From Halorhabdus tiamatea SARL4B (lineage in GTDB: Archaea; Halobacteriota; Halobacteria; Halobacteriales; Haloarculaceae), in NCBI RefSeq assembly GCF_000470655.1, contig NC_021921.1, forward strand, positions 248,001-312,000: a stretch of DNA of 64,000 nt, given 5' to 3'. This document shows, piece by piece, positions 26,656 to 34,968 of the stretch (positions are counted from its first letter, which is position 1; the number at the start of each line of letters is the position of its first letter). Below the pieces are notes generated by a model. That model was not told the DNA's origin. It saw only the letters and a program-made list of their open reading frames with translations, and searched no databases. A program made the translations under genes and the position numbers.

Positions 26656-27612
26656 TCAGGAAGTCGAGACGGGCGTCGAAGGGGCCTCGTCGAAGTCATC
26701 AGTGACTACGCCGACGAACGCCGCCGGATGTTCGACGTGTGGAAGGAGTTTCGCATCGTCGAAGACGATCAGGCGGGAGTCGGTCTTCTTCGCCAGCGCC
26801 CGACCGCCGGAAACCGGCGTGATGTCGGCGTCACGTCCCCAGACGAGCGTCACCGGGGCGTCGACGTCCGCGAGCGTCTCAGTCAGCTCGCTCGCAGGGT
26901 CGAGATAGCCGCTGACGAACGACGCCGGTGCGTAGCGTGCGCCGGGCTGATGGGCCGTCTTCCACTGATAGGAAAGCGTCTCGGCCGTCAGGTTGTCCAT
27001 GTCGGCGTAGCCGTGATCGCGGTGGAAGTACTTGATCCCGGACTTGCTGACCAGCAGGTTGAACAGTCCCGTCCCGAGAAGTGGCGTGCGAAACAGGCTC
27101 CGCAGCCACGACCGGGGGGAGTCGCTCATCGTCGAGTCCGTCGGCGCGATCAACACGAGCGAGTCGACGTCCGCCTCGGCCGCGGCGCTGGCCGCGTACG
27201 CACCTGACAGCGACGACGCGACGACCCGCGGTTCATCGACGAGGCCTCGAATCGCGTCCCGGAGGAACGTCTCGTACAGCGACGCCGAGTAAAGCAGCGG
27301 CGGGCGGTCGGACCGACCGAACCCGGGGAGGTCCGGGGCGATCACGTGGTACTCCCGAGAGAGGTCTTCGAACACTTCGGCGAACTCCCGGCTCGATGAC
27401 GCCGCCGAGAGGCCGTGGATCAGGAGGAGATCGGGGTCGTCAGGGTCGCCAGCTTCGGTGTAGGCGACGTCGAAGCCGCGCCACCGGTAGGTTCCGCTCG
27501 CGCCGACGAGTGGCGGTTCGAGGTCGCCAGCACGGGCCGTGAGAAGACGGTTGACGCCAGCAGTCACGCCGGCCGCACCCACAGCCGCCGTGAGGAGGTT
27601 CCGGAGCTTCAT
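26656..27612 (-). CDS. Alpha/beta hydrolase
   Basis: The 318-residue protein from the ATG at 27612 begins with a hydrophobic leader (MKLRNLLTAAVGAAGVTAGV) that may be a membrane anchor. The hydrolase fold follows with oxyanion motif LLIHGLSAASSS, nucleophile elbow VASSLSGAYAAS (the first Gly of GxSxG is replaced by Ser), an acidic residue in VWGRDADITP and the catalytic His in LLPHVEHPAAF. The substrate is unknown. An ATG at 27639 is a possible alternative start. Confidence 0.85.
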   Translation of the reverse strand: MKLRNLLTAAVGAAGVTAGVNRLLTARAGDLEPPLVGASGTYRWRGFDVAYTEAGDPDDPDLLLIHGLSAASSSREFAEVFEDLSREYHVIAPDLPGFGRSDRPPLLYSASLYETFLRDAIRGLVDEPRVVASSLSGAYAASAAAEADVDSLVLIAPTDSTMSDSPRSWLRSLFRTPLLGTGLFNLLVSKSGIKYFHRDHGYADMDNLTAETLSYQWKTAHQPGARYAPASFVSGYLDPASELTETLADVDAPVTLVWGRDADITPVSGGRALAKKTDSRLIVFDDAKLLPHVEHPAAFVGVVTDDFDEAPSTPVSTS

Positions 27613-27674
27613 ACCGCGTTCTACGGGCGTGGCCGGCATATAGGTGATGGACGGCGGCCCGAATCGCCAGCTCG

Positions 27675-28499
27675 TCAGGTCGACGCTGACCGGTAGGCCG
27701 ACCGGATCGCGACCGCGAGCCCGCCAGCCGTCCAGCCCGCCAGCCCGACGAATGCAACCAGCGGATTCACGCCACCCGATATCGCGTCGCCAGCCACCGG
27801 TCCAATAGCCATCTCGAGGACGAGTCCGCGGTAGGCCGAGAGGGGACTCAGGGCGGACAGTGTCGAGAGGTCCTCCGGAGAGACGATCCCGCCGGCGAGG
27901 CCGGCCACGAAGCCGAGATCCAGGCCGACGACCAGCACCACGACGCCACCGACAGCCAGCGCGATCGCGTTCCGGGTCGTCCGGGCGATCGACGAGACAG
28001 CGATAGCGACCCCGAGTGCCACCGGCGCGAACGCCGCCGTCAGCGCGACGGTCCGCAGGTAGACCAGCGGCGAATCGGCCGTCGCGTGGGTCGCCAGGAC
28101 GGAGATCGATTCCTCGCGGAACGCGACGACGGAACCACCGGCGAGCAACAGCGGGACGAGCACGATCAGGAGCAGCGTCGCCAGCCGACCCAGGAACACG
28201 CCGACGACGTACGATCTGGCGGACAGCGGATACGTCCGGAAGACGGCGAGTTCGCCCCGGACGCGATCGTCGAGGATCGACCGGTAGCCGATCGCGAACG
28301 CCACCACCGGCACCAGCACTTCAAGCGGCGTGAGCACCGAGAGTGTCAGCGAGAGGTAGCCACTGCCCCGTGTCGTCCAGGCGATAGCGAGGACGACGAA
28401 CGCGTAGCCCGCGGCGACGGCGAACAGCGCCCGGCTCCGCACAGTCGCGTCGAAGGCGCGCTGGGCCACCGCAATCGTGCGCTCCCAGGCGTCGTTCAT
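27675..28499 (-). CDS. nosY: NosY-like ABC-2 permease of the nos cluster
   Basis: The 274-residue protein has six predicted transmembrane helices and the ABC-2 coupling segment RVRGELAVFRTYPLSARSYV after helix 2. It is the third member of the NosD-NosF-NosY unit that in denitrifiers exports a sulfur-containing species for copper-cluster assembly in nitrous oxide reductase. The start is the second of two duplicated ATG contexts: an 8-codon mini-ORF ends on this ATG. Separation from nosF is 19 bp. Confidence 0.85.
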   Translation of the reverse strand: MNDAWERTIAVAQRAFDATVRSRALFAVAAGYAFVVLAIAWTTRGSGYLSLTLSVLTPLEVLVPVVAFAIGYRSILDDRVRGELAVFRTYPLSARSYVVGVFLGRLATLLLIVLVPLLLAGGSVVAFREESISVLATHATADSPLVYLRTVALTAAFAPVALGVAIAVSSIARTTRNAIALAVGGVVVLVVGLDLGFVAGLAGGIVSPEDLSTLSALSPLSAYRGLVLEMAIGPVAGDAISGGVNPLVAFVGLAGWTAGGLAVAIRSAYRSAST

Positions 28500-28534
28500 C
28501 TGTGATCACCCGCGTCGTTCATCCGCGATCACCC
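28489..28534 (-). repeat. 23-bp tandem duplication at the nosF/nosY junction
   Basis: Two adjacent 23-bp units (28512-28534 and 28489-28511) differ at two positions. Each contains the context ATGAACGACGC. The first ATG overlaps the nosF stop (ATGA); the second is the nosY start. The unit is not a multiple of three, so the first ATG is out of frame with nosY and opens a short reading frame instead. Confidence 0.85.
28496..28522 (-). CDS. Eight-codon mini-ORF bridging nosF and nosY
   Basis: From the duplicated ATG at 28522 the frame reads MNDAGDHR and stops at a TGA that overlaps the nosY ATG. Its own ATG overlaps the nosF TGA. It therefore forms a double stop-start relay between the two genes. 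It is unlikely to make a functional peptide; any role would be in translational coupling. Confidence 0.35.
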   Translation of the reverse strand: MNDAGDHR

Positions 28535-29259
28535 GCCGTCCCGGATCGGACGCCGATAGCGTCCTCGCGGTCGATCAGGGCGTCGATGGCCCCCTCCAGC
28601 AAGTCAGTGCCCGTTTCCGCTTCGATCGCGGCGGGCGACCCACCGGCGACGAACGCGCCGTCGTCGAGGACGCGGACCTCGTCGGCGATGCGCTCGGCCG
28701 CGCCGAGATCGTGGGTCGCCATGAGCACCGCCGCGCCGTTGGCTGCGAGATCCGCGATGACGTCCGCAATATGGTGACGGAGCTGCGGATCGAGGCCACT
28801 GGCCGGTTCGTCGAGCACCACGATCGGCGGCGAGCCGACAGTCGCCTGGGCAAGTCCGAGGAGCCTGACCATGCCACCGGAGAGGTTCTCGACCTGGCGG
28901 TCGGCGACGCCGTCGAGACCTACTTGCCCGAGTGTCGCGGTCTCGTCGATCTCCATTGGCACGAGCGATCCGTAGAACGCGATCGTCTCGGCGACGGTGA
29001 ACTGCGGGCGAAACGCCGGCCGCTGGGGGAGGTACCCGACCGATCGGGCAGCCCCGGCGGTTCGTCTGGTGACAGCTCCGTCGTCCGGCGTGCGAAGGCC
29101 AGCCGCGATCGAGAGCAACGTCGACTTCCCGGAACCGTTGGGTCCGAGCAGACACGTCACCGACCCAGCCTTGACGTCGAGAGAGACGCCGTCGAGGACA
29201 GCGACGTCCCCGAACGCGTGCCGGACGTCTTCGAGCGCCAGGACGACTTCTCCACTCAT
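28519..29259 (-). CDS. nosF: NosF-like ABC ATPase
   Basis: The 246-residue ATPase has Walker A GPNGSGKSTLLSIA, the signature NLSGGMVRLLGLAQA, Walker B IVVLDEPASGLDP and the switch His in MATHDLGAAE. Its start overlaps the nosD stop by 4 bp. In the Nos system NosF powers NosY transport in support of NosD. The position between nosD and nosY makes the assignment firm at the operon level. Confidence 0.9.
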   Translation of the reverse strand: MSGEVVLALEDVRHAFGDVAVLDGVSLDVKAGSVTCLLGPNGSGKSTLLSIAAGLRTPDDGAVTRRTAGAARSVGYLPQRPAFRPQFTVAETIAFYGSLVPMEIDETATLGQVGLDGVADRQVENLSGGMVRLLGLAQATVGSPPIVVLDEPASGLDPQLRHHIADVIADLAANGAAVLMATHDLGAAERIADEVRVLDDGAFVAGGSPAAIEAETGTDLLEGAIDALIDREDAIGVRSGTAGDRG

Positions 29260-31154
29260 GGCGACACCGCCTCACCAGTCGATATATTCCGTGCCATTGC
29301 GATCTTCTCGGATTGGACCGGTACGAGCCGTGGCTCGTCGTCGATCACGTTCGCGGATCGAAGGCCGGGTACCGCCGCCTCGAACCGACGCAGGATCGTG
29401 ACGGCGGGCGAGGTCGAAAGCGTCGCCGCTCCCGTGGACCTGTCCACAGCGCTGTCGACGGGCCCCGTCGGTCGAAACGCGCGGTCGATCCGGCCGTCGG
29501 CGTCGGCGTCGCGGCCCGGAATGGTGCCCCAGTAGTTGGCCGTCCAGACGCGGACCGGGCCGCGTCCGGTGGAGACGTAGCGATCGTTGTCGATCACGTC
29601 GTTGCCCGTCACGCGGTTCGTCGGGACGATGGTTCCGGTTCGCAGTCCGACGTCGTTGCCGGCCAGGACGTTGTACGCGAACGTCGACCGCTGGGCACCG
29701 AGGTCCATCCCGTAGCGATTTGCCACGAGCGTGTTGTTCGCCACGAGTGATGTACTCCCCCCGACCGAAATCCCGACGTCGCTCGCCGAGACGCGGTTGT
29801 CGAGAAGCACGTTCGACCGCGGGCGCGTCATGACGACGACGCCGATGTCGGTATCTCTGGCGGTGTTGTTCCTCACAAGCGTTCCGGACGTGTACATCTC
29901 GTGGACGCCGAACCGCATCCCCGTCATTCGGTTGTCCCGGACGACGAGCCCGTCGGCGTGGTGGGTGTAGACGGCGTCTCGGCCGCCGGTGAACGTGCTG
30001 TCCTGGACGACGATCCGGGCGTCCATCGCCAGCACGCCCATGAACCCGTCCTGCCAGTCGGCCGTCCCGTTGATCGAGACGTTTTCGACCACGACGCCGT
30101 CGCTGTCTCGAACGATCGCACCGCTTGCCGGCGTCTCGACGTGGACGCGAGCGAGTAGTGAGCGGTTCGCGCCGTCGAAGACGACTGCAGCGTCGCCGTA
30201 GCCGTAGGTCGTCCGGACGCTTTCGTCCCACTCGCCGGCAGTCTCGGCGGCGTCGACCGGGTCTCCCGTGTTCGACTCGCCGACGTCAGTGATCGACAGG
30301 TTCGCGAGGCCGACCTCCGGAGCGGACACCCGAATCGCCGTGCCGTTGTCGCCGACGATTCGCGTCCGCTCACCTGCACCACGGATCGTGACGGACGTCT
30401 CGACGGTGACGTTGCCGTCGTAGGTTCCGGGTGGCAGTCGGACGGTCGTGTTCGGCGGTGCGGCGTCGACCGCCCCAGCGAGTGTCGGGACGTCTTCGCC
30501 GACCGTGATCGAGACCGGCCGATCCAGGAGTGGCCGTCGTTGCCGGACGGTGCGATCGGCCCAGGCCGTCCGATCATTCGCCGCCTCACGCAGCCACGAC
30601 GCCCGCGGTTCGTCTTCACGGGGTTCGAGTTCCGTCCAGTCGCGAACCGTCCCTCCGTATCGTTTGGCGAAGTCCCTGGCGTCGGCGGCGTCGCTGAAGG
30701 GGACGATCGCCGGCCCGCCGGGAGTCCGCGCCTCGCTGTCGACGACGAAGGCGGCCTCACTCGCTCGTACCCACCCGACCGCCGGATCGGACGCGACAGT
30801 GAGGGACTTGTCGTCGGTGAGCCGGGGGCCGGCACCCGAATAATCGCTCACGTAGATCGCGAGGGGGCGGCCGAACTGGCGGGTCGTGGTCTCGCGATCC
30901 GTCGCATCGACCGCCGACGCCACGCCGTAGTAGCCCACGACGTACTCGTACTGCGAGTAGAACACTTCGACGCGAGGGATCTCGGCTCCCCCGGCGCGGG
31001 CCTGCTGGACGTCGACGCCAGTCATCCCCGTCGCGAGCGTGTCCGAGAAGGGGACTGGCCGGGCGCTCGCACTCGCGCCGGGATCGATGGCGAACGCGAG
31101 GCTCGCCCCGCTGAGCACGACCGCCAGCGCCGCGAGCACGAGCGTGACGCGCAT
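29256..31154 (-). CDS. nosD: NosD-like beta-helix protein with fused N-terminal NosL-like domain
   Basis: The 632-residue exported protein has a signal peptide (MRVTLVLAALAVVLSGASLAFA). Residues about 40-190 resemble NosL: VEVFYSQYEYVV, LAIYVSDYSG, EAAFVVDSEA and FAKRYGGTVRDW each match a segment of the neighbouring NosL, although the NosL Cys-rich metal motif is absent. Residues about 210-560 are a right-handed beta-helix with repeated 'N-x-V-x2-N' rungs typical of NosD/CASH proteins. NosD works outside the membrane in copper-site maturation. It is followed by nosF with an ATGA overlap and preceded by nosL 2 bp away. Confidence 0.88.
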   Translation of the reverse strand: MRVTLVLAALAVVLSGASLAFAIDPGASASARPVPFSDTLATGMTGVDVQQARAGGAEIPRVEVFYSQYEYVVGYYGVASAVDATDRETTTRQFGRPLAIYVSDYSGAGPRLTDDKSLTVASDPAVGWVRASEAAFVVDSEARTPGGPAIVPFSDAADARDFAKRYGGTVRDWTELEPREDEPRASWLREAANDRTAWADRTVRQRRPLLDRPVSITVGEDVPTLAGAVDAAPPNTTVRLPPGTYDGNVTVETSVTIRGAGERTRIVGDNGTAIRVSAPEVGLANLSITDVGESNTGDPVDAAETAGEWDESVRTTYGYGDAAVVFDGANRSLLARVHVETPASGAIVRDSDGVVVENVSINGTADWQDGFMGVLAMDARIVVQDSTFTGGRDAVYTHHADGLVVRDNRMTGMRFGVHEMYTSGTLVRNNTARDTDIGVVVMTRPRSNVLLDNRVSASDVGISVGGSTSLVANNTLVANRYGMDLGAQRSTFAYNVLAGNDVGLRTGTIVPTNRVTGNDVIDNDRYVSTGRGPVRVWTANYWGTIPGRDADADGRIDRAFRPTGPVDSAVDRSTGAATLSTSPAVTILRRFEAAVPGLRSANVIDDEPRLVPVQSEKIAMARNISTGEAVSP

Positions 31155-31156
31155 CG

Positions 31157-31750
31157 CTACGACTGGGCCAGTTCGGCGATCGTCGAGCGGCTCACGTCGT
31201 CGAACTGTGCCGTCGAGCCGCCGTATTCGTCGGCGAGGGCCGTCGCGTCTTCGTTCTCGGAGAACGCGATGAGGTCTCGTCCCATCGCCCCTTCGACGGC
31301 GGAGCCGACGACGAAGGTGACCTCACTTGCCGGCGTGAACGCCTCGGCGGCGGGGTGCGTCGAGATGAACGTCGTGCCGGCGTCGGTGAAGATGTCGTAG
31401 TCGACGCTCGAATAGTCGGTCACGTAAAACGCGGTCCGGGTCCAGCCCCGATCGCGGCGCTCGAAGTCGTACTGGAAGGCCTCCCAGGTGCTGTCGAAGC
31501 GGGCCGGGTTGTCGTGGTTCGACGGCTTCTCGTCCTGGTAGAACACCTCGGCGCTCGGGCCAGGATGCTGTGGAATCACCATGCCACAGACGTCACAGGC
31601 GTCGTCGGTCCCCAGGGTGACGGGATCGGGGGCCTCCGACGAGAGACACCCGGCCACGCTCGTGAGCGCGCCGATCCCTATCGCTGCGAGCAGTCGCCGA
31701 CGCGTGAGACGCCCCGTCTCGCTACCGGAATGAGGGCCACTGGCAGTCAT
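31157..31750 (-). CDS. nosL: NosL copper-binding lipoprotein
   Basis: The 197-residue protein from the ATG at 31750 has a twin-arginine start (RRRLLAAIGIGALTSVAGC), in which the Cys is a lipobox residue, so it is probably Tat-exported and lipid-anchored. The NosL copper motif is DACDVCGMVIP, with two Cys and a Met. NosL delivers Cu(I) to apo-nitrous oxide reductase in denitrifiers. Upstream in-frame starts up to 31879 overlap the divergent SCO gene and would bury the signal peptide, so they are rejected. First gene of the leftward nosLDFY operon. Confidence 0.9.
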   Translation of the reverse strand: MTASGPHSGSETGRLTRRRLLAAIGIGALTSVAGCLSSEAPDPVTLGTDDACDVCGMVIPQHPGPSAEVFYQDEKPSNHDNPARFDSTWEAFQYDFERRDRGWTRTAFYVTDYSSVDYDIFTDAGTTFISTHPAAEAFTPASEVTFVVGSAVEGAMGRDLIAFSENEDATALADEYGGSTAQFDDVSRSTIAELAQS

Positions 31751-31851
31751 TATCCAATCTTGGTAGTCTGCCACAATGAATCCGCTGGTCCGTTCCCGCA
31801 ATCCTTTCTCGTTCGGGAACGGTTTAGTGCACTGGGTACAAGAACGCAGTC
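31751..31851. promoter_or_regulatory. Divergent promoter region of the copper-maturation island
   Basis: About 100 bp separate nosL (leftward) from the SCO1-like gene (rightward). The region is AT-richer than the flanking genes and contains TATTATCC-like and TTTCTCG stretches. Shared control of both arms is plausible; no specific operator is evident. Confidence 0.4.
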
Positions 31852-32511
31852 GTGAACAGACGCGAGTATCTCGGGGCACTCGGTGGCGGTGTCGCCGCGC
31901 TGACGGCCGGGTGTTCGGCCGACGAGTCCGACACGTATCTCGACGAACCGGATCTGCGTGCCGAACCGTCCCAACTCCCGTATCCGGTCTACGGGCAGTC
32001 GCTACCGGACGTCACGCTGTCGGACCCGATCGCCGACGAGGAAATCACGGTCGGTAACGACGATCGCGACACGCTGCTGACGTTCTTCTACAGTCACTGT
32101 CAGTCAGTCTGTCCGCGGTTGGTCTCCGCGTTGCGCAACGTCCAGGCGAACGCCATCGAGGATGGCTTGATCGACACGACGGCGTTCCAGGCCGTGACGT
32201 TCGATCCGGAACGCGACGACGGTGACAGACTCCGGGGCTACGCCGACCGGATGAACGTCTCACTGTCCGATAACTGGCGATTCCTGCGGCCGGAATCGCC
32301 CGAACACGCACAGGAGGTCGTCACGGACGAGTTCGGCGTCCGCTTCGAGCGAACCCACCCGGAAGAGATGGACATGTACATGTTCTCCCATCGCGCGCTC
32401 ATCTTGCTGGTCAACGCCGACGGGTACGTCGAGCGCTCGTATCCGAACTCGACGCCGTCCTGGCAGACGATCGACGACGACCTCCGGACATTAAACGACC
32501 GGGAGCACTAA
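31852..32511 (+). CDS. SCO1/SenC family copper chaperone lipoprotein
   Basis: The 219-residue protein starts at a GTG and has a twin-arginine lipoprotein leader (MNRREYLGALGGGVAALTAGC). The copper motif CQSVC follows FFYSH near residue 80, and the distal His lies in MFSHRALILLV. SCO proteins insert copper into, or reduce, the CuA site of cytochrome oxidase and of related enzymes. It is divergent from nosL and starts a rightward run with TlpA-like, CcdA-like and DUF420 genes, 1 bp from the next gene. Confidence 0.88.
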   Translation: MNRREYLGALGGGVAALTAGCSADESDTYLDEPDLRAEPSQLPYPVYGQSLPDVTLSDPIADEEITVGNDDRDTLLTFFYSHCQSVCPRLVSALRNVQANAIEDGLIDTTAFQAVTFDPERDDGDRLRGYADRMNVSLSDNWRFLRPESPEHAQEVVTDEFGVRFERTHPEEMDMYMFSHRALILLVNADGYVERSYPNSTPSWQTIDDDLRTLNDREH

Positions 32512-32512
32512 C

Positions 32513-33049
32513 ATGCGACGGCGTGAACTCCTCGCCGGAATTGGCGGCGCGGCGGTCGTCGGCGGCAGTGCCTACCTCGCGTTCTCCCCGAGCAACAGCG
32601 GCGCGATCGAGAGCGACGGCCGACAGATCGACCCGGTCGACGTCGAGACGTTCGAGACGGCCAACAGTCCAGACGGGGAACTGACGGTACCTGTCGAGGG
32701 CTCCGTTACCGTGATCGATCTCTTCGCGACCTGGTGTCAGCCGTGTAAACCCGCACTCGAGGCGCTCCGGACGGTCCACCGGGACAACACTGACGTCCAG
32801 TTCGTCTCGGTCACCAACGAGGCCCTGGGCGGCGATCTCTCCCGGGCGGACGTCCTCGCGTGGTGGGACGAGTTCGGCGGGCCCTGGGCCGTCGGTCACG
32901 ACCCCGAGGGCACGCTGCTCGCCCGGCTGGGGACGTCGGCACTTCCCTTCAGTGCCGTCGCCAATCCCGACGGCCGGATCGTCTGGGCGGAGAAGGGCGT
33001 CCCTGAGCCGGAGCGAGTCGACGAGGCGATCTCCGCCGCGCGATCATGA
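32513..33049 (+). CDS. TlpA/ResA-like extracytoplasmic thioredoxin
   Basis: The 178-residue protein has a Tat-type start (MRRRELLAGIGGAAVVGG) with one helix, then a thioredoxin fold with the redox motif CQPC in LFATWCQPCKPALEAL near residue 78. The cis-Pro is in SALPFSAVANPDG. It would reduce cysteines of copper-site proteins outside the membrane, drawing electrons through the CcdA protein encoded next (4-bp ATGA overlap). Confidence 0.88.
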   Translation: MRRRELLAGIGGAAVVGGSAYLAFSPSNSGAIESDGRQIDPVDVETFETANSPDGELTVPVEGSVTVIDLFATWCQPCKPALEALRTVHRDNTDVQFVSVTNEALGGDLSRADVLAWWDEFGGPWAVGHDPEGTLLARLGTSALPFSAVANPDGRIVWAEKGVPEPERVDEAISAARS

Positions 33050-33720
33050 GCGGGCTCGCCCTGGACGCGACCGTCGTCTTCGCGGTCACGACCGGCGCGA
33101 CGACGTTTTTCGCCCCCTGTGCCTACCCGCTGCTTCCGGGCTACGTCGGCTATTATCTCCAGGACGAACCAGAGGTGGGGACGTCCGTGCTCGCAGGGGC
33201 GCTCGCGCGAGGGCTGGCAGCGAGTCTCGGCGTGCTGAGTACCTTCGGCGCGCTCGCTGTCGCGGCCGTGATGGTCGGCCAGCCGATCCAGGCCCACCTC
33301 TCGCAACTGGAACTCCTCGTCGGCGTCCTGTTAGTTGTCCTCGGCCTGGCGACGCTGTCCGGCCGGACGACCGGCTGGCACGCGCGTCTGCCCGAGCGCC
33401 GCACGTCGATCGCCGGGTTCGTCGGGTTCGGGGGACTCTACGCCGTCGCGGCGACCGGGTGTGTCGCGCCCGTCTTCCTCGCCGTGGTCTCCCAGGCGCT
33501 GACGTTCGGACCGATGGGGACGGCCGCCGTGTTGGGCGGGTACGCCGCCGGGATGGCCGTGTTGATGATCGCCGCCACCGTCGCGGTCGCGGTCGGCGTC
33601 GAGATTACGACGGACCGCTTCGCCGGACTCACCGACCGACTCACACCGATCGCCGGCGGTATCCTCGTCGTCGCTGGCCTCGTCCAAATTTGGCTCGCCC
33701 TGTTCGTCTACAGCGTCTGA
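33046..33720 (+). CDS. CcdA-like thiol transporter
   Basis: The 224-residue membrane protein has six helices and the family's paired Cys: one in FFAPCAYPLLPGY of helix 1 and one in AATGCVAPVFLAVV of helix 4. CcdA shuttles reducing equivalents from cytoplasmic thioredoxin to outer-face proteins such as the adjacent TlpA-like protein. Its start overlaps the TlpA gene's stop. Confidence 0.92.
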   Translation: MSGLALDATVVFAVTTGATTFFAPCAYPLLPGYVGYYLQDEPEVGTSVLAGALARGLAASLGVLSTFGALAVAAVMVGQPIQAHLSQLELLVGVLLVVLGLATLSGRTTGWHARLPERRTSIAGFVGFGGLYAVAATGCVAPVFLAVVSQALTFGPMGTAAVLGGYAAGMAVLMIAATVAVAVGVEITTDRFAGLTDRLTPIAGGILVVAGLVQIWLALFVYSV

Positions 33721-33792
33721 GATCGCCGCGAGAACCACCGGGCGGCGTGCCGGAAGCCGAACACAAAAGCCGCCGCCGACCAATGTCGGGGT

Positions 33793-34446
33793 ATGCAGAC
33801 AGACCCAGGCTCTCGACTCCGGCGCGTCGCTCGCGAGCATACGCTCGGCGTGACGGCCGTCGTCTCCGCGGTCGGGTACGCGCTCGTCGCCGGCGCGTTC
33901 GCGGGCGCAATCCCGCTGTTTCCGTCGCTTTCACGCTCGACGGTCAACCTCTTTGGCCATCTCATCGCGATCGTCAACGCGAGCGCGCTGACGGCGATCC
34001 TCGTCGGGATCTACTTCATCAAGCGCGACGAGGTCGAAAAGCATCGCGCGGCCATGTTGACCGCGTTCGCACTCATCGCCGTCTTTCTCGTCCTCTACCT
34101 CTGGAAAGTCGGCGGCGGCTTCGAGAAGTCGATCACCGCCACCGGTCTCCCGGAGATCGCGTATCTCCTGATGCTCGCCGTTCACATCGTCCTCTCCGTG
34201 GTCGCCGTCCCGGTCGTCCTCTATGCGGTGATCCTCGGATTCACCCACTCCCCGGCAGAATTACGATCGACGGCTCACGCCCGCGTCGGCCGGATCGCCG
34301 TCGCCGCCTGGTCGATCAGTCTCTTCCTTGGGATCGTGACGTACGTCATGCTGAACCACGTCTATGGGTGGGTGCCCCGGGAGTCTGCGCTCCTGCTGAT
34401 CGCCGTTCCGCGATCGGCGTGGTCGCTGGGCTGGCGATCTGACTGA
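33793..34446 (+). CDS. DUF420 family membrane protein
   Basis: The 217-residue protein has five to six helices with the DUF420 pattern: GHLIAIVNASALTAILVGIY, then KRDEVEKHRAAMLTAF and YLLMLAVHIVLSVVAVP with conserved His residues. DUF420 (COG2322) proteins are usually encoded beside heme-copper oxidase genes and are implicated in oxidase assembly. It follows ccdA by 72 bp and closes the rightward arm. Confidence 0.85.
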   Translation: MQTDPGSRLRRVAREHTLGVTAVVSAVGYALVAGAFAGAIPLFPSLSRSTVNLFGHLIAIVNASALTAILVGIYFIKRDEVEKHRAAMLTAFALIAVFLVLYLWKVGGGFEKSITATGLPEIAYLLMLAVHIVLSVVAVPVVLYAVILGFTHSPAELRSTAHARVGRIAVAAWSISLFLGIVTYVMLNHVYGWVPRESALLLIAVPRSAWSLGWRSD

Positions 34447-34480
34447 TGGGCTCCGCTGAGAGGATTTTCCGCCGTCGGCC

Positions 34481-34837
34481 TCACTGGTTTCGCTCGATCA
34501 GGTCGATGACGTCTTCGACCGGCTGGAAGCCGTCGGCGACGCGTTCGACTGCTTCGCCCTCACGGAAGACGACGAGCAGTGGGACGCTGCGTACGTCGAA
34601 GCGGTCGACCAGCGGCGGGTCGTCGCGCGGGTTGACCGTCGCGACGACGGCGTCACTCTCCTGGGCGGCGATCCCCAGGATCGGCTCCATCGATGCACAC
34701 ACGCTACAGCCCTCGGTGTAGAATTCCACGAGAACCGTGTCGTACGTCTCGACGAGCGCGTCGAGGTCTGCCTCGTCCGCGAGAGCGACCGGTCGTTCGG
34801 GTGGGTCAGCGGCGTCGTACTGCGTGGCTGCTGTCAT
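34481..34837 (-). CDS. Cytoplasmic thioredoxin family protein
   Basis: The 118-residue protein from the ATG at 34837 has the redox motif CSVC in [15 protein letters not shown] and the cis-Pro in RSVPLLVVF. It lacks a signal peptide, so it is probably the cytoplasmic reductant; its place next to ccdA and the TlpA-like gene fits an electron donor to CcdA. An upstream ATG at 34885 would add 16 residues without sense. It converges on DUF420. Confidence 0.88.
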
Positions 34838-34968
34838 TGCCCGTACTCCGCGCCGGAGGTTCAAAGACCACTCGGTATTGTCCAATCATCACAATCTCCC
34901 TGGAGTCGTTTGCCGGCGCGCGCCGGCGACCAACGGGTATTTGTCTCCCGACCGGCACCCACACAGGC

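Follow-up and report, generated by a model that had tools for sequence, protein, structure and literature searches.

Introduction

NosD, NosF, NosY and NosL are known as a set of proteins dedicated to maturing nitrous oxide reductase (NosZ), and the presence of these accessory genes may be taken as a sign of N2O reduction. The set described from P. stutzeri (PDB 7o0y, 7osf) comprises a NosD beta-helix protein, a NosF ATPase, a NosY permease and a NosL lipoprotein. According to published work, NosL binds Cu(I) with its CxM motif (PMC6530538) and acts at CuZ (PMC6530538, PMC7558416). A CuA or blue-copper client would therefore be a new use of such proteins. The assembly of CuA sites was described for Bacillus and Bradyrhizobium and involves SCO, TlpA, CcdA and CtaM, with TlpA acting before Sco1 (PMC7558416). 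CtaM is reported to be required for QoxABCD (PMC4958251) and was proposed as a copper exporter for Sco (PMC13344008).

That NosDFYL may act independently of NosZ has already been put forward in print. There are reports of a nosDFYL locus without NosZ in Parageobacillus thermoglucosidasius, for which copper nitrite reductase was suggested as an alternative copper recipient (PMC13068155), and of Haloferax volcanii, which has nosFY and lacks nosZ (PMC9240420, citing Zumft and Kroneck 2006).

Here we analysed a stretch of 64,000 nucleotides from Halorhabdus tiamatea SARL4B, hereafter called the window (positions 248001-312000 of the larger contig, NC_021921.1). It contains an island in which the four types of Nos accessory proteins known from P. 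stutzeri are encoded next to SCO, TlpA-like, CcdA-like and DUF420 proteins. In contrast to P. stutzeri the genome is devoid of nosZ, and the NosD protein bears an additional cysteine-less NosL domain. Compared with nosZ-linked NosDFYL sets, the NosD and NosF proteins of the island belong to a separate clade. The resemblance to the CuA assembly modules of Bacillus and Bradyrhizobium lies in the SCO, TlpA-like, CcdA-like and DUF420 genes forming one operon, in the thiol residues (CxxxC in SCO, CxxC in the TlpA-like protein, two cysteines in the CcdA-like protein) and in a COX2 gene with a CuA motif in the same genome; the coupling to a NosDFYL-type ABC machine sets the island apart from them. 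With the loci from Parageobacillus and H. volcanii it shares the Nos accessory genes without nosZ, whereas neither a clade of NosL-NosD fusions nor an SCO-TlpA-CcdA-DUF420 island is described in the accessible parts of those two papers. In the open-licence literature we found no paper on this clade, named NosLD in the following, or on its link to SCO.

Gene content of the island

Two operons diverge from an intergenic region of 101 bp (31751..31851). The one on the minus strand is tightly packed and starts with the gene for the lipoprotein NosL (31157..31750), which carries the motif CDVCGM (PF05573, E 1.8e-39). The corresponding open reading frame extends to 31879, and the start in agreement with the Tat/lipobox is the ATG at 31750, giving a protein of 197 aa. 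The adjoining gene encodes NosLD (29256..31154, 632 aa), in which a cysteine-less NosL-like N-terminal domain (PF05573, aa 89-178) is fused to a NosD beta-helix (PF05048, aa 382-542). It is followed by a NosF-like ABC ATPase (28519..29259, 246 aa, PF00005), which groups in the NosF tree with the NosLD-type and not with the nosZ-linked proteins, and by a NosY-like ABC permease (27675..28499, 274 aa, PF12679), whose sole PDB match is NosY of P. stutzeri (7o0y_D, E 1.3e-4).

The operon on the plus strand encodes an SCO copper/thiol chaperone with a CxxxC motif (31852..32511, 219 aa, PF02630), which has Sco1 of B. subtilis and Blr1131 among its PDB matches, and a TlpA/ResA-like thiol oxidoreductase with a CxxC motif (32513..33049, 178 aa, PF08534), which also matches DsbE/TlpA models as well as ResA and DsbE chains. 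These are followed by a CcdA-like membrane thiol transporter (33046..33720, 224 aa) and a membrane protein of the DUF420/CtaM family (33793..34446, 217 aa, PF04238, E 3.8e-32). The CcdA-like protein of the window has no direct Pfam match and was assigned by its family alignment and profile. Four of seven family members match DsbD_TM, two cysteines are invariant throughout the alignment, and the profile matches the solved CcdA structure 5vkv with E 7e-7.

All eight genes are kept together in each of the six congeners that were read. The initial annotation had placed the same genes, together with a cytoplasmic thioredoxin, around one divergent promoter. The genes are indeed all present where they had been located and the two operons do diverge from a single gap, but the thioredoxin gene (34481..34885, minus strand, PF00085) is convergent to the DUF420 gene, does not belong to that promoter, and in none of the six congeners was it found at the island loci. 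We therefore place it outside the island. The reading as nosLDFY was likewise right about the genes, but overlooked that nosD encodes a NosL-NosD fusion.

Directly downstream of NosY lies a gene for an alpha/beta hydrolase (26656..27639, minus strand), which is often conserved at that position. It adjoins NosY in four of the six congeners, is also found near NosY in the loci L074 and L108, and appears conserved in Halorhabdus and some Haloarculaceae. Scans of the window for tRNAs and Rfam families gave no hits (0 and 0).

The genome lacks nosZ and encodes a single COX2 with a CuA motif

The genome consists of two contigs of together 3.15 Mb and is 99.99% complete. No nosZ gene is found in it: the TIGR04246 model matches only with its profile positions 519-577, and does so at the COX2 gene, which corresponds to the CuA part. 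This model was used instead of PF18793 (nos_propeller_2), since the control for the latter in the genome search was without any match. In a class-wide search with TIGR04246, NosZ was found in 113 of 391 genomes, as called by E-value and length, because no haloarchaeal NosZ reaches the curated cut-off of the model; none of the seven Halorhabdus genomes is among them. In one genome NosZ appears as two overlapping matches (G279:C37:31850-33546), which possibly reflects a frameshift in the gene or an error of the assembly.

There is one COX2 match with a complete CuA motif, and this is the sole place in the genome where that motif was found. One full-length COX1 gene is present as well. Both lie outside the window, far from the island and unlinked to it. 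The initial annotation had noted the lack of nosZ and of oxidase subunits around the island and had suggested a check of the whole genome; the census bears out the observation and extends the lack of nosZ to the entire genome. The SCO and DUF420 genes of the island are the only ones in the genome, which furthermore encodes five PF00127 blue-copper matches. A link of the island to B-type (ba3) oxidases alone was considered and dropped: the single full-length COX1 scores 505 bits against PF00115, well above the 301 bits of the oxidase located beside NosLD in locus L096. Oxidase types were judged by eye.

NosLD proteins form a separate clade

The NosLD protein scores 194 bits against TIGR04247, which is below the curated cut-off of 300; its NosD beta-helix is recognised by PF05048 above the cut-off. 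A profile built from 16 NosLD proteins matches both NosD (7o0y, E 1e-39) and NosL (2hpu, E 2e-8). The best match of an AlphaFold2 model of NosLD (mean pLDDT 80) is NosD of NosDFY, with Z 39.1 over 342 residues at an rmsd of 3.3, whereby residues 212-620 are the well tested part of the fold search and the NosL-like domain rests on the Pfam and profile matches. This predicted similarity speaks for a common fold, not for a common substrate.

The fused NosL domain differs from the separate NosL of the window in lacking the CDVCGM motif. Within the first 200 aligned residues 22 of the 25 NosLD proteins listed contain no cysteine, and the CxM motif is found in none of the 25. In the 12 nosZ-linked NosD proteins examined, the alignment to NosLD starts only around residue 210 or later. 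In the trees of NosF and of NosD, the 57 NosLD-type rows are split from the 12 nosZ-linked rows by one branch (SH-aLRT 100), and the proteins of the island do not group with the nosZ-linked copies.

Occurrence of NosLD in haloarchaea

At E <= 1e-25 NosLD was identified in 250 of 391 haloarchaeal genomes. The number is 240 after removal of ten weak NosD matches with E-values from 1e-25 to 1e-34 (G003, G004, G012, G018, G074, G080, G141, G150, G298 and G328), and as three candidates per genome were scored, some of the absences may be false. Nine of these ten genomes contain nosZ, the exception being G018. With the number of 240, both NosLD and nosZ occur in 88 genomes, NosLD alone in 152, nosZ alone in 25 and neither of them in 126. 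Hence, the occurrence of NosLD is not bound to nosZ. An odds ratio of 2.9 (p 2e-5) nevertheless shows a positive association of the two. It speaks against full independence and may be due to shared lineage or to copper-rich lifestyles. If the 152 genomes indeed carry the NosLD branch without nosZ, concluding from nos accessory genes on N2O reduction is unsafe in haloarchaea.

COX2 is encoded by 387 of the 391 genomes and is too common a trait for a correlation. About 147 of these 387 genomes are without a strong NosLD match, and CuA can therefore apparently be made without NosLD.

Co-occurrence with SCO, DUF420 and oxidase genes

SCO and DUF420 were counted in a hand-picked sample of 41 genomes, which were chosen as lacking nosZ and mostly from the low handle numbers, with the four COX2-less genomes added. 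Most of them had been chosen before anything was known about their SCO and DUF420 genes, but the choice was not fully blind, as the NosLD neighbourhood had already been seen for a few (the region loci of G000, G013, G020 and G021 aside). In this sample SCO is present in 16 of 17 COX2 genomes with NosLD, compared to four of 20 COX2 genomes without it (Fisher test, 7e-6). Counted per genus, the numbers are 12 of 13 and three of 13, respectively (p 0.001). None of the four genomes without COX1 and COX2 contains SCO. In several sampled genomes, for example G135 and G138, SCO is located far from NosLD, so that linkage alone does not explain the co-occurrence. DUF420 is found in all 37 sampled COX2 genomes and in none of the four without COX1 and COX2, and thus tracks the oxidase and not NosLD.

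For the gene neighbourhoods, we combined the 78 loci obtained in a single scan with 27 hand-picked regions and the window, which gave 101 non-redundant NosLD loci after merging of duplicates. Near NosLD we find SCO in 24 of them, DsbD_2 in 19, a COX subunit in ten, DUF420 and a P-type ATPase in nine each, a fused CtaA-CtaB in four and nosZ in one. The ten loci with a COX subunit compare to about 1.4 expected, a rough figure that assumes about 2.6 COX2 genes per 3.7 Mb.

A NosLD set without oxidase

Among the 391 genomes searched for COX2, four are without COX2 and also without COX1. One of them, G128, lacks COX1 (searched up to E 10) as well as COX2, SCO and DUF420 but retains NosLD, NosF, NosY and NosL (L089 7859-13238, corresponding to G128:C1:1893358-1898737). 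It encodes two PF00127 blue-copper proteins, and one of the genes, halocyanin-like, adjoins NosLD in divergent orientation. Neither NosLD nor PF00127 proteins were found in the other three genomes. The NosLD half of the island can thus apparently work without any oxidase, and cupredoxin sites in general may be its clients. Halocyanin genes also follow NosY in the loci L108 and L166. In the halocyanin-like protein of G128 the axial Met may be replaced by Gln, as judged by eye.

Function of the island and its possible clients

The use of a NosDFYL-type set independently of NosZ is well supported by the lack of nosZ in the genome, by the clade apart from nosZ-linked NosD and NosF and by the many haloarchaeal genomes with NosLD and without nosZ. 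That the island is the remnant of a lost nosZ operon is very improbable. It does contain gene types of a nos operon in a genome without nosZ, but its NosF and NosD fall in a separate clade in two trees, its genes are conserved and remain together in all six congeners, and nosZ is absent from all seven genomes of the genus. We therefore rejected that explanation.

In our preferred reading, to which we give an even chance, the genes of the island form a copper-insertion module based on an ABC machine of the NosDFYL type that has become distinct from the machinery for nitrous oxide reductase, and its main client here is most likely the CuA site of COX2. The two halves of the island differ in this respect. 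That the SCO-TlpA-CcdA-DUF420 half serves the oxidase is very likely. For the genome itself an oxidase link is supported by gene content: the sole SCO and the sole DUF420 lie in the island, and the sole CuA motif found is that of COX2. For NosL, NosLD, NosF and NosY, loading of CuA is our best guess in this genome, with halocyanins as the main rival client. The initial annotation had proposed a NosZ-independent use for the CuA site of an oxidase; independence from NosZ and the oxidase link in this genome are supported, while an exclusive link does not agree with G128 and with the COX2 genomes devoid of a strong NosLD match. Further points against CuA as client are that the COX genes are unlinked to the island and that loss of NosL spares the CuA site of NosZ except under copper shortage, as stated in PMC6530538.

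NosLD, NosF, NosY and NosL might instead be a general loader of extracytoplasmic cupredoxin sites, chiefly halocyanins, with CuA of COX2 as one client among others and only the SCO-TlpA-CcdA-DUF420 half being specific for the oxidase. This fits with the blue-copper proteins in the NosLD-bearing genome G128 and their absence from the three NosLD-less ones, with the divergent halocyanin-like gene there and with the halocyanin genes behind NosY in two loci, although four genomes are few, the three negatives represent two genera of one family, and a halocyanin-like ORF lies near only six of the 101 loci, a lower bound obtained with one motif and one query. We consider it a serious but rather doubtful alternative. 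Another copper enzyme, such as a copper nitrite reductase or a multicopper oxidase, is an unlikely client. It was proposed for the Parageobacillus locus in PMC13068155, and denitrifiers could account for the positive association between NosLD and nosZ; by eye, however, no copper nitrite reductase was recognised among the recurring NosLD neighbours listed. It seems improbable too that the island exports copper, confers copper tolerance or transports a different substrate, for example sulfur, in place of metallating a client. A P-type ATPase near nine of the 101 loci and the copper sensitivity of B. subtilis upon loss of DUF420/CtaM (PMC13344008) are in line with such a role, but the association of NosLD with SCO and with genes of a thiol relay points to assembly, and NosLD folds like NosD of NosDFY, which tells about the fold and not the substrate.

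Returning to the copper-insertion module, the data show its gene content, the lack of nosZ, the separate clade and the co-occurrence with SCO, while we infer its client and all of its steps. CcdA would transfer electrons through the membrane to TlpA, and TlpA would keep the cysteines of SCO and COX2 reduced; DUF420 (CtaM) would provide copper on the outer side. NosL as Cu(I) lipoprotein would dock onto NosLD, for which the fused cysteine-less NosL domain may be a built-in dock, and NosFY would power the hand-over of copper with ATP. A more general version can be put forward only tentatively. In it NosLD, NosF, NosY and NosL would be a second branch of NosDFYL, directed to oxidases and cupredoxins, common in haloarchaea and independent of N2O respiration; it would act as an ATP-driven inserter in place of a PCuAC-type donor, deliver Cu(I) to SCO/COX2 and to halocyanins, and use the metal-free fused NosL domain as a permanent dock. 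If the NosLD branch indeed occurs without nosZ in the 152 genomes, a genetically tractable archaeon could be used to test which client an ABC-driven inserter loads with copper, and the branch would be a candidate donor of copper to CuA sites in archaea.

Further observations on NosLD loci

Two NosLD copies lie close together in L085, L092, L116, L120, L139, L167 and G161:C4, and in some genomes SCO and DsbD_2 are found beside one of the two copies. This suggests duplication and specialisation. At L123 4684-5847 and in 11 other loci, NosL itself is accompanied by a longer NosL-domain protein (387 aa, CAVCGM), which is encoded near NosLD and SCO. NosLD, NosF and NosY are also present on a contig of 3.7 kb (L187) from a soda-lake metagenome-assembled genome, which is labelled as the bacterium Nitriliruptoraceae and is probably a mis-binned haloarchaeal contig.

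Beside COX2, L067 5332-10065 (G000:C2 2277331-2282064) contains a fused CtaA-CtaB, a protein that, as judged by eye, resembles DUF7546, and a second ABC transporter. The ATPase of this transporter shares 38% identity with NosF. Comparable gene sets recur near NosLD in L074, L117, L120, L121 and L166. The commonest extra neighbour of NosLD is the small membrane protein DUF7471 with a weak match to MerC, which occurs in 32 of 106 loci (L151 14638-14958 and 31 others), in a neighbour cluster that also includes overlapping ORFs.
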